A stretch of 64,000 nucleotides of DNA from Lachnospiraceae bacterium (GTDB lineage Bacteria; Bacillota; Clostridia; Lachnospirales; Lachnospiraceae). The position numbers and the translations under genes are program-made. The DNA lies in the NCBI GenBank assembly GCA_022769665.1, contig JALEIR010000079.1:1-64000 (forward strand). The letters are read 5' to 3'. Shown here one piece after another: positions 36,360 through 42,581 of this stretch. Under the pieces are notes generated by a model. It searched no databases. It was not told the origin of the DNA and worked only from the letters and a program-made list of their open reading frames with translations. The first letter of the stretch is position 1. Each line of letters starts with the position of its first letter.

Positions 36360-37730
36360 CTATATATGTGTTGCAATAATCAGGGTTCTCCCATTCCGGC
36401 GGGTCCGGACATACTCTTCGGCGCATGCACGGGTTTCGGCATCCATCCCCGTAAAAGGCTCATCCAGAAGCACACAGTCAGAATCTGCTTCCATGGCCCG
36501 CACCAGTGCCACCCGACGCTTCATGCCACCGCTTAAGACTTCGCAGGGCTTGTCCAATGCCTCCGGCTCCAAAAGCTTTTCCAGTTCCGCTCTTGCTGCT
36601 GTCGCATCGCCCGTCACCATCTCCACATTCTTTACTGCACTGTATCCCCGGCACAATCTGTCTTCCTGAAATACCATACTACAGGAAGCAATCGTTTTTA
36701 CCCTGCCGCTGTCGGGCTGTTCCAAGCCCGCAAGGAGACGCAGCAGCGTTGTCTTTCCGCTGCCGGAGGGTTCTCTCAGATAATAAACATGTCCCTGCTC
36801 AAAGAAATCATTCCTGTCCTTGAACACAGTTATATCGTGATATCTCTTACACACATTTTCCAGTACAAATCCACGGTCGTCAGACGCAACTGCATCTCCG
36901 GCGTTTGCCTCCCGGGGAAACCTCCTTCTCTGTTCTCCCTTCTTTGGCTTCACCTGCTGTCCCCGGCTTTTTACTTCCGGCTTTCTGCACGCCGGCTGCC
37001 AGTCAAAAAATCTGTCCGTTAGCCAAATCACCAGCTTTTCAAAAAGGAAGCTGAGCATAATCACCACCGCTGTCCACGCAAAAACTCCGGCTGTGTCAAG
37101 ATAAATCTTAGACATATATATCTGACCACCGATGGACAAATCTGCCATGCCAATCACTTCCGCTGCCACTCCGGATTTCCAGCTCATACCCAGTGCTGTT
37201 TTCATGCTGCTGTACAGATATGGTTGCAATGCCGGTCTGTAAATATAGAAAAAGCAGCTACCCGGCGACAGCCGGAATACCTTACCCATCTCCAGAAGTT
37301 CCCGGTCTACATTTTTGAGACCTTCCAACGTATTGATATAAATACCGGGCAACACCACCAGGAAACTGACGACAGCCGCCAGGAAAGAAGACCCCCACCA
37401 AATCAGTAACAACACAACAAAGGATGCCACAGGAATCGCTTTCAGCAAACTGATAAGCGGTGACAGGCAATCCTCCAGGAACGGGAAACGACAACTGACA
37501 GCTGCCAGCAATACAGCAGTCCCCATCCCCGCAAAAAAACCTGTTCCGATTCGCAGAAGCGACATTGCAATTGTCCGGTAAAAAGACTTGTCCCCCAACA
37601 GGGCAAACAGTTCCTTTGCCGTCCGGATAGGTGTTGACAGCAGAATCTTGTTGTCGACGACATGCGCCAGTACTGCCCACATAACAATCCAGAACAGAAT
37701 CATTAAGGCTTTTCTGATTGTCTTTTTCAT
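36360..37730 (-). CDS. fused ABC permease-ATPase (SsuC-SsuB/TauC-TauB type importer)
   Basis: This 456-aa protein joins two normally separate importer subunits. Residues 1-255 form an SsuC/TauC-type permease with about six helices and the ATPase-contact region ELLEMGKVFRLSPGSCFFYIYRPALQPYL. After a basic linker, residues 295-456 form an ATPase with EPSGSGKTTLLRLL (Glu where Gly usually begins Walker A), signature VLSGGMKRRVALVRA and Walker B CVLLDEPFTGMD. It ends at IIATHI, just after the switch His, about 20 residues short of most relatives. Its start overlaps the lipoprotein gene stop by four bases. Substrates of this class include sulfonates, taurine, nitrate and pyrimidines; the substrate here is unknown. 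Confidence 0.85.
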   Translation of the reverse strand: MKKTIRKALMILFWIVMWAVLAHVVDNKILLSTPIRTAKELFALLGDKSFYRTIAMSLLRIGTGFFAGMGTAVLLAAVSCRFPFLEDCLSPLISLLKAIPVASFVVLLLIWWGSSFLAAVVSFLVVLPGIYINTLEGLKNVDRELLEMGKVFRLSPGSCFFYIYRPALQPYLYSSMKTALGMSWKSGVAAEVIGMADLSIGGQIYMSKIYLDTAGVFAWTAVVIMLSFLFEKLVIWLTDRFFDWQPACRKPEVKSRGQQVKPKKGEQRRRFPREANAGDAVASDDRGFVLENVCKRYHDITVFKDRNDFFEQGHVYYLREPSGSGKTTLLRLLAGLEQPDSGRVKTIASCSMVFQEDRLCRGYSAVKNVEMVTGDATAARAELEKLLEPEALDKPCEVLSGGMKRRVALVRAMEADSDCVLLDEPFTGMDAETRACAEEYVRTRRNGRTLIIATHI

Positions 37731-38981: not shown

Positions 38982-39182
38982 ATGTCCGGTAACAGAAGTA
39001 ATAGAGTAGAAGTGCCTGAAGCAAAGGCAGCAATGGATCGTTTTAAGACTGAAGTTGCATCTGAGCTTGGTGTAAACCTGAAGGAAGGCTACAACGGTGA
39101 TTTGACTTCCCGTGAGGCTGGTTCCATCGGTGGTGAAATGGTTCGTCGTATGATTCGTAAGCAGGAAGAGCAGATGAAATAA
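38982..39182 (+). CDS. alpha/beta-type small acid-soluble spore protein
   Basis: This 66-aa protein coats and protects spore DNA. It has the family's two conserved blocks: a VEVPEAKAAMDRFKTEVASELGV segment with the germination-protease cleavage region around FKTEVASELG, and the C-terminal GDLTSREAGSIGGEMVRRMI. I chose the ATG at 38982, preceded by GGAGGTGAAAAG, not the upstream frame start at 38889. It is a single-gene unit with a sigma-G-like promoter and a shared terminator, and is clear evidence of sporulation. Confidence 0.96.
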   Translation: MSGNRSNRVEVPEAKAAMDRFKTEVASELGVNLKEGYNGDLTSREAGSIGGEMVRRMIRKQEEQMK

Positions 39183-39988: not shown

Positions 39989-40017
39989 AGTATACTAGTG
40001 TCTTGGGCAAAACTCAA
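39989..40017 (-). promoter_or_regulatory. fsa promoter
   Basis: TTGAGT, 17-base spacer, TATACT on the minus strand. The -10 lies inside a second perfect palindrome, CTAGTATACTAG. The -35 overlaps the end of the kinase gene. Confidence 0.65.
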
Positions 40018-40808
40018 GTATTTTCGTACTCATACAGCCAAATATTTTTTTCCACTCTTATTTTCCCCCTCAGCACAGCCTTCTGTAAATTGCTGAACTT
40101 TCCGTGACACCCGGTTTCGCAGCAGACCGAAAGCAGTTCTTCCGCCCATCCCATATCCGGCAGTCTCTCCGTGGGAAGGATTCCGGTGCATCTGCGAATG
40201 ACTGCCCTCAGCCGATTATCACAATTTTTCCCACCGGCTGCCTGCAATGTTTTTCCAAGCCCGTAGATATCGGCAGTTATGGTCGGGCTGTTGCCGGGTT
40301 CAAACTGCTCCGGTGCTCCAAAGCCGGCGGTTCCGGCAATGCCGCTTTTATCTCCCTCCCGGCATGCACAACCAAAATCAACAAGTTTCACTCTACCGTC
40401 CGCGCTCAGTATAATATTGGAAGGTTTGATATCCCGAAACAGAATCGGTCGTTGTCTCTCATGAAGATATCTTATTCCATTTGCAAGTTTTTGTCCGATT
40501 TCTGCTGTCTCCTGCGATGAAAAGCAGCCTTGGCTTCTGATAATTCGCTCCAGATTTTCTCCCTGTACATATTCCATCATGAGCCATCCGCTCCCCTTCT
40601 CTGTCCCATGCTCCGCATACGTCGGAAACAGCTCATGCTTTACCTGTCTCTGAATTTCCGCTTCTTTCATTAACATTTCAGTATTTTTACTAATCTTGCA
40701 GGCATAATAGCGGCCTGCCGTATCTGCGGCCAGATACACCTCTGCAAAGGCACCTTTTCCCAGCAACCGGAGCAGCCTATATTTTCCGCCGGCTATTCTC
40801 TCATTCAT
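40014..40808 (-). CDS. Ser/Thr protein kinase, soluble Hanks type
   Basis: This 264-aa kinase has a glycine loop GKGAFAEVYLA, Lys in YACKISK, catalytic loop FRDIKPSNIIL (FRD for HRD), metal-binding VDFGCA and GAPEQF (APE). Unlike PrkC it has no membrane helix and no PASTA repeats, so it does not sense cell wall fragments itself. The last 50 residues lie past the kinase fold and include several Cys. It overlaps the upstream gene, a likely dead PP2C homologue, by eight bases. That pairing suggests the partner regulates or is regulated by the kinase. Confidence 0.9.
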   Translation of the reverse strand: MNERIAGGKYRLLRLLGKGAFAEVYLAADTAGRYYACKISKNTEMLMKEAEIQRQVKHELFPTYAEHGTEKGSGWLMMEYVQGENLERIIRSQGCFSSQETAEIGQKLANGIRYLHERQRPILFRDIKPSNIILSADGRVKLVDFGCACREGDKSGIAGTAGFGAPEQFEPGNSPTITADIYGLGKTLQAAGGKNCDNRLRAVIRRCTGILPTERLPDMGWAEELLSVCCETGCHGKFSNLQKAVLRGKIRVEKNIWLYEYENT

Positions 40809-41457
40809 TGTCCCCCTCCTTTGTCATTACCAAAACGGCTGTCCGGAAATTTCCTTCTGCCTTCTTTGCAAATTCTCTCAGATGCCTGTTTGCCTGTTCT
40901 TCCGTTTCCATGCCAACCAATCGTAAAGCTTCACCCAGTTTATTCTCCTCGCCGGGTTTCACCGCTCCTTCCGGAACCAGCAAAATTCCTGCTCCCGGTT
41001 CCAATACACCCCTGAAACTGCCGTTCATTCTTCTTACAATTCCTCTTCCGAGAGACGTACCCAGTAAATAAGCTTCCTGCCCATTCCCCAAAATCATAGC
41101 TTCTTCGCCCAGACACAAAAGTATCTTCCATTTCGCTCTGATACTCTGTGGCAGCAAGCCCTGACCTGTCATATCAGAGCACGCTATATCAGCTGTACTC
41201 TCTCTGGCAATCTCCGCCAGTTCTTTCTCTGCCAGTCCCATCCACTTTTTCCGGCTTCGCACCGCCTTATGCCAGGGGAAGCCACGGCACCACGATAAAA
41301 GCTGCCCGGTAAATCTTCGGCCCGCTTCTTCATTTTTCACATTACATGCACAAATACATACAAAGCATACCGAAATTCCCCTGCATGCATACTGCTGCAG
41401 CAAAAGGGAGGTTTCTCCCTCCCCCTGCAGCCTGATATAGGTTGTCAAATATTTCAT
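40801..41457 (-). CDS. possible PP2C pseudophosphatase, partner of the kinase
   Basis: This 218-aa protein is not clearly assigned. Its layout suggests a PP2C fold: an MKYLTTYIRLQG start, a hydrophobic strand GISVCFVCICACNVKNEEAG where DGMGG would be, LLCLGEEAMILGN where GDSR lies, ILLVPEGAV where the TDG motif lies, and a final FRTAVLVMTK where DNxTxIVV lies. Each expected metal-binding Asp is replaced, so it would be inactive as a phosphatase. The order phosphatase-kinase with overlap is a standard bacterial pair, which supports this reading. Unrelated function remains possible. Confidence 0.55.
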   Translation of the reverse strand: MKYLTTYIRLQGEGETSLLLQQYACRGISVCFVCICACNVKNEEAGRRFTGQLLSWCRGFPWHKAVRSRKKWMGLAEKELAEIARESTADIACSDMTGQGLLPQSIRAKWKILLCLGEEAMILGNGQEAYLLGTSLGRGIVRRMNGSFRGVLEPGAGILLVPEGAVKPGEENKLGEALRLVGMETEEQANRHLREFAKKAEGNFRTAVLVMTKEGDNE

Positions 41458-41495: not shown

Positions 41496-42581
41496 TTATT
41501 TCATAAAGATATTTGCCAAATCATTAAAGAAGATAAATACCATCAAAATCATAAAAAACATCAAGCCGATAAAATGCACCATGCCTTCCTTCTCGGGCGG
41601 TACCGGCTTGCCCCGGATAACCTCTATCAGCAGAAAGACCAGTCTTCCGCCATCCAGCGCGGGAATCGGAAGCAGATTCAGGATACCCAGGTTTACGGAA
41701 AGCATCAACGTAATATTCAGCATACTTAACAGTACGCTCTGCCAGCCATAATCCTTGGCAGCCTCGTAGGTAGCGCCCACCACATTAACCGCAATACCCA
41801 CCGGTCCTGCCACATCCTGCCTGGTCACACGCCCGGTGAACAGCATCCCCAGGCTCTTGTAAGTGGCCTTCACGGAGTAACGCATCTCATACCACGCATA
41901 CTTCAGGGTTTCGACACCCTTTGGCTCAACAAATTCCCCATTGACAATTCCCAAAAGATAATAGCCGTATTCTTCATCATACCGGGGAGTCAGCATCGTT
42001 TCATGACGTTCACCGTCACGCTCATACACTACCTTCACATCGCCACCGCGATAAGAGGCCTGCATAAACAGTGAAATTTCCTGATACAGTTTGATGCTTT
42101 CTCCGTTAAGGGAAATGATTCTGTCACCGTCCTGTAAGCCTGCTGCCTCCGCGCCGCCTCCTTCTGACACCTGAGAAGCAATCGGATCGCGAATTGCTAT
42201 AATTCCTGTCATGTTAACCATGATAAAAGCAATGACAAATGCCAGAATAAAGTTGAAAAAAGGGCCTGCTGCCACTGTGGCAATCCGACTCCAAACCTTG
42301 GCTTTCAAAAAAGAGCCCGGTCCCGGTTCTTTTGCCTCTCCCGAAGTCTCATCCTTCTCAACCACTCCGTCTTCACCCTCAAACATACAGGCTCCGCCGA
42401 TGGGAAACAACTTCAGGGAATATTTTGTTCCACCCTTTTGAAACGAAAAAATATTCGGTCCCATACCCACGGCAAACTCCACCACATGAATGCCGTTTAC
42501 TTTGGCAATCAGGAAATGTCCGAATTCGTGTGCTATGACCACAACCCCGAAGATGATAATAAACAAAATCAACGTCATCAT
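41496..42581 (-). CDS. rseP: site-2 membrane metalloprotease RseP
   Basis: This 361-aa intramembrane zinc protease has HEFGH in the first helix (VVIAHEFGHFLIAKVNG), a PDZ domain in the middle (about residues 130-215, with GLQDGDRIISLNGE) and the second catalytic motif NLLPIPALDGGRL. It cleaves anti-sigma factors or signal peptides within the membrane. The window also has a membrane anti-sigma protein (29349-30095), a possible but unproven substrate. The start codon directly follows the dxr stop (TAAATG), so the two are coupled. Confidence 0.95.
   Translation of the reverse strand: MMTLILFIIIFGVVVIAHEFGHFLIAKVNGIHVVEFAVGMGPNIFSFQKGGTKYSLKLFPIGGACMFEGEDGVVEKDETSGEAKEPGPGSFLKAKVWSRIATVAAGPFFNFILAFVIAFIMVNMTGIIAIRDPIASQVSEGGGAEAAGLQDGDRIISLNGESIKLYQEISLFMQASYRGGDVKVVYERDGERHETMLTPRYDEEYGYYLLGIVNGEFVEPKGVETLKYAWYEMRYSVKATYKSLGMLFTGRVTRQDVAGPVGIAVNVVGATYEAAKDYGWQSVLLSMLNITLMLSVNLGILNLLPIPALDGGRLVFLLIEVIRGKPVPPEKEGMVHFIGLMFFMILMVFIFFNDLANIFMK

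Follow-up and report, generated by a model that had tools for sequence, protein, structure and literature searches.

A degenerate PP2C-fold protein retained beside or fused to an intact soluble kinase in Lachnospiraceae is most likely a regulatory part of that kinase

Introduction

Bacterial pairs of a protein kinase and a PP2C phosphatase are textbook on/off switches. Operons combining a kinase with a phosphatase of the PPM family are common (PMC6213207), some PP2C proteins known from elsewhere carry a Pkinase domain (PMC12088040), and TAB1 is a PP2C-like protein without activity (PMC5297835). Here we analyze a locus in which the phosphatase of such a pair appears to have lost its catalytic site while the kinase has kept its own. 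The locus lies in a window of 64,000 nucleotides (the whole stretch of DNA that was analysed; positions 1 to 64,000 of contig JALEIR010000079.1, assembly GCA_022769665.1) from a Lachnospiraceae bacterium. On the minus strand, a gene for a protein of 218 amino acids (40801..41457, hereafter the partner) stands between rseP, which encodes a site-2 protease, and a gene for a soluble Hanks-type Ser/Thr kinase of 264 amino acids (40014..40808). The partner has been entirely missed by automatic annotation, and a literature search that covered few subscription papers brought up no account of a pseudophosphatase and a Hanks kinase forming a pair in bacteria. A pseudophosphatase has persisted for a long evolutionary time across a broad group of gut bacteria, beside or fused to an intact kinase, and is most likely a regulatory part of that kinase, to which it would bind.

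Results

Sequence searches of Pfam, NCBIfam and the PDB with the partner alone returned chance matches only, and a match to an RCF1-5 lid (E 0.012) was rejected. The PP2C profiles PF13672 and PF00481 match neither the window protein nor any of 13 homologues from the same genus, and Pfam gives no receiver domain match in this single-domain protein. We built a profile from the 13 same-genus homologues and ran it against 397 genomes of the family, which are mostly metagenome-assembled; trees come from quick searches, and start codons and transmembrane calls were assigned mechanically. Relatives of the partner were found in 38 of the 397 genomes. Wherever both genes fit on the fetched locus the relative adjoins a kinase gene, directly upstream of it, and the next gene upstream, where visible, is mostly rseP. 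Genome contigs were searched with the kinase alignment, the partner alignment offering no conserved stretch. The distant relatives are plain PP2Cs, recognised by Pfam, that carry NQDS, CDGIGG, GDSR, CTDGF and DN. The degenerate and the intact groups are tied together because a profile of the relatives matches intact PP2Cs over their full length, with E-values down to 3e-27 and scores up to 96 bits.

The predicted structure agrees with this ancestry. AlphaFold was given an alignment of nine degenerate sequences, one of them the window protein, and 0 intact PP2Cs, and produced a model with a predicted local distance difference test (pLDDT) score of 83.9 and a predicted template modelling score (pTM) of 0.83. 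The best 50 PDB matches listed by Foldseek are all PP2C/PPM proteins, PstP, tPphA and PppA among them (probability 1.00), with query template modelling scores (TMq) of 0.46-0.63 that denote a shared core fold and no close match. Structural support for the PP2C fold is strong and not fully independent, AlphaFold having been trained on such structures. An earlier reading of the sequence alone (the sequence-only reading) had guessed the fold from strand order; a PP2C beta-sandwich is now supported by profile homology together with the predicted structure, and no other fold stood among the matches listed.

Aligned to intact family members, the partner places CACNVK (residues 36-41; 41335..41352, minus strand) over CDGMGG, PEG over TDG, GET over NQD and FR over DN; the second of these lies in VPEGA (residues 161-165; 40963..40977, minus strand), which replaces the CTDGF metal motif. 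The metal-binding Asp residues of motifs 1, 2, 8 and 11 number 0/4 in the window and 4/4 in 51 intact relatives, which bears out the claim of the sequence-only reading that every expected metal Asp is replaced. The kinase tree unites 82 loci whose partners are degenerate in a single clade (Shimodaira-Hasegawa-like approximate likelihood ratio test, SH-aLRT, 99) in which the kinase is soluble in 82/82, and intact partners occur only outside it. Counted by alignment column and with chance residues included, the partners of this clade hold 0-2 of the four metal Asps. Sequencing error as the cause of the loss was rejected because all 82 members are degenerate, and no close homologue has an intact set of Asps. 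Early-branching members retain differing single remnants (CDG in L205, GDCKGY and CTDGF in L201, GDARAYL in L021), and such scattered remnants fit descent from an active enzyme. By its sequence, the partner would therefore be classed as a pseudoenzyme descended from the PP2C/PPM family rather than as a phosphatase. The former metal positions of the clade now vary freely, with an entropy of 3.0-3.4 bits against a mean of 2.56. Glu195 of the partner (40873..40875, minus strand), atypical for intact PP2Cs, is invariant in the clade (82/82) and marks a gained constraint; three more positions, N133, F136 and R138, are specific to the clade, with a conservation of 71-78%.

Two further losses (L038 and L041) sit elsewhere in the kinase tree, each with a dead partner and a transmembrane kinase. 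The dead state and the loss of transmembrane segments are imperfectly coupled, six loci being scored as intact and soluble (L239 is cut off and L044 borderline). We also observed a half-degenerate PP2C before a transmembrane kinase (L061, 3068-3958; CDGDEE, GPTRAY, YSDGF, RED), a possible intermediate. One genome (G003) holds a dead pair and an intact pair (L005, L190), each after an rseP, which may reflect paralogy or contamination.

The window kinase matches Pfam Pkinase with an E-value of 5.9e-34, and its Gly loop, VAIK Lys, alpha-C Glu, HRD Asp and DFG are all present. It had been described as soluble and free of PASTA and membrane regions, and indeed neither a PASTA domain nor a hydrophobic segment was found in its 264 residues, the NCBIfam PASTA-kinase model scoring far below its cut-off. 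Across the clade, the catalytic Asp and the DFG Asp are kept in 82/82 kinases each and the Lys in 81/82 (catalytic residues overall, 77-82/82). Other soluble Hanks kinases of Lachnospiraceae (L057, 3974-4777; L072, 3956-4819) have no PP2C-like neighbour and no KNIW tail of the kind described below.

Partner frames are full-length in 82 loci. Using Nei-Gojobori counts in 11 close species pairs, the ratio of nonsynonymous to synonymous substitution rates (dN/dS) is 0.15-0.39 for the partner, compared with 0.12-0.38 for the kinase and 0.03-0.10 for rseP; such ratios show purifying selection on the partner, in a regime that it shares with the kinase. With the rseP distance removed, partner and kinase distances remain correlated (r=0.37), a value reached in 0/2000 permutations.

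Partner and kinase are encoded in one reading frame in six species (L022, L056, L075, L208, L211, L237). The six fusions form one group in a second tree, with weak support (47), so that the fusion may have arisen once. A model of the fused protein (pLDDT 85.6, pTM 0.73), in which about four residues link the two halves, suggests that these are held in a fixed arrangement; a fold search with this model gave best matches to the kinase half only and adds nothing.

The kinases of separate pairs end in a consensus of roughly [YC]xKNIW[EK]SxY, represented in the window by VEKNIWLYEY (kinase residues 252-261; 40026..40055, minus strand), which the comparison of C-terminal motifs marks as a candidate docking peptide for the partner. 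Tails were scored with a leave-one-out matrix, for which shuffled tails reach 8 in 1.3% of cases. Of the 75 kinases whose partner is separate, 71 score 0 or more and 57 score 8 or more, compared with scores below 0 in all six fused kinases and in all six kinases of a partner-less sub-clade (L240, L241, L243-L246). The full upstream interval is visible in four of these partner-less loci (L240, L241, L244, L246), and nothing lies there between rseP and the kinase gene. Fisher's exact test gives p = 1e-11 for the tail association, for which the tree shows just two independent switches; we take the association with a separate partner as a pointer, not proof. Some kinases paired with an intact PP2C carry the same tail element beside a membrane segment (L027, QEKNIWLTEKK). 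We read the KNIW tail as a probable docking peptide that would be unneeded once the partner is either fused in cis or absent.

In the window, rseP (41496..42581, minus strand) lies 38 nt upstream of the partner, and this upstream neighbour is kept across the family; dxr and further genes stand in line with rseP, partner and kinase on the same strand. The partner stop overlaps the kinase start by 8 nt, ATGAATGA (40801..40808, minus strand). The sequence-only reading had proposed a regulatory module locked by this overlap. The module is backed indirectly, by linkage, selection, the six fusions and the tail loss; the overlap is incidental, and a special role for it was rejected because the spacing between partner and kinase is not conserved among relatives (start choice being crude). 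Elsewhere in the same genome, a second Pkinase match, a kinase of roughly 715 amino acids in a frame of 721, adjoins the sole PP2C_2 match, and the two make up an ordinary kinase/PrpC pair with an intact phosphatase. The genome also has one SpoIIE-type phosphatase and one FHA protein. Near the kinase locus, a short frame (38982-39182, plus strand) encodes what resembles a small acid-soluble spore protein of the alpha/beta type. In the window, an open reading frame at 36360-37730 (minus strand) also looks like an ABC permease and ATPase in a single chain, its Walker A being EPSGSGKTT with Glu replacing the first Gly.

Discussion

We put at roughly 60% the probability that the partner is a PP2C pseudophosphatase retained as a non-enzymatic regulatory or docking subunit of an active kinase. 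Its ancestor would have been a working PP2C of the membrane kinase/phosphatase pair that follows rseP in Lachnospiraceae. One clade would descend from an ancestor whose phosphatase no longer had a metal site and whose kinase had shed its membrane and outside parts; from then on the protein would have been retained as a non-enzymatic, constitutive subunit of a kinase that is still active. The partner most likely binds the kinase through the C-terminal KNIW tail of the latter, and would set its activity or target it. The computations establish homology, fold, metal-ligand loss, intact kinase residues, selection, linkage, fusions and tail pattern; physical binding, use of the tail and an effect on kinase activity are inferred. 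Several observations weigh against this reading. The residual correlation of distances can also stem from co-inheritance of neighbouring fast-evolving genes. The tail association amounts to two independent events, with which a sign test cannot reach significance. Finally, the six species of the partner-less sub-clade (G457, G495, G462, G458, G019, G526) retain the kinase although no partner gene was detected in them, so that a partner would not be an absolute requirement.

We lean toward a scaffold or activating role over that of a reversible inhibitor, because partner and kinase can be fused in cis. An inhibitor would sit on the kinase, for example on its activation loop, and restrain it pending a releasing signal. 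The kinase itself was probably a target of the ancestral PP2C, and partner and tail have been lost together from apparently intact kinases, but permanent fusion suits a releasable inhibitor poorly, and we hold this role to be distinctly unlikely. Somewhat less unlikely is a free-standing adaptor, in which the dead PP2C would bind a client other than the kinase and the kinase would only control that binding by phosphorylating the partner. RssB, a bacterial PPM pseudophosphatase adaptor in sigma-S control (PMC12143880), is a precedent, the gene is located after rseP, and the newly conserved positions might suit whatever client is bound; the six kinase fusions and the paired loss of the kinase tail nonetheless point to the kinase.

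Two other explanations fare far worse. A decaying phosphatase without function could account for the absence of all catalytic Asps, the fast evolution and the missing gene in one sub-clade, but it is strongly disfavoured by the dN/dS values of the 11 species pairs, the 82 full-length frames and the invariant Glu195. It is just as improbable that the partner retains enzymatic activity through a remodelled metal site or other chemistry. Some rows do show one or two Asps (for example ATDGF in L002, L050 and L187), but no conserved D/E/H/K cluster hinting at a new active site was found in the clade alignment, where the only polar residues conserved at 60% or more are Q21, Q22, C34, C36, N133, R138, R192 and E195.

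Here the off switch was inactivated a single time, and some 80 lineages have retained both genes. If the partner is indeed a kinase subunit, this is a natural experiment in the conversion of a phosphatase into part of a kinase, in which intact, dead, fused and partner-less forms can all be compared. In the genome of the window, where two Hanks kinases and one PP2C_2 phosphatase were found, the single phosphatase may have to serve both.

Among known systems, human TAB1-TAK1 likewise combines a PP2C-fold pseudophosphatase with a kinase, a comparison of possible working only: the two pairs are not homologous, TAB1-TAK1 belongs to a eukaryotic MAP3K pathway, and the bacterial partner would bind its kinase by our inference. 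For a TAB1-TAK1-like module here, the fusions and the linkage are suggestive only. A full bacterial counterpart, a dedicated holoenzyme of single origin with docking through KNIW and a one-chain lineage that made the tail dispensable, is a tentative proposal to which we give somewhat less than an even chance. PHLPP2 is also a PPM pseudophosphatase whose activity was lost in an ancestor while the protein was kept (PMC12002173), but it is a multidomain animal protein with no paired kinase gene. RssB of E. coli shares with our partner a bacterial pseudophosphatase domain of the PPM fold, turned adaptor in its case; it is compared with RsbU (PMC12143880), and unlike the partner it has a receiver domain, binds sigma-S and has no kinase partner gene. 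Intact pairs like PrpC/PrkC, Stp1/Stk1 and PstP/PknB stand at the same locus in other Lachnospiraceae; the phosphatases of those three systems are active and their kinases are membrane proteins with PASTA domains, whereas the pair described here combines a dead phosphatase with a soluble kinase.
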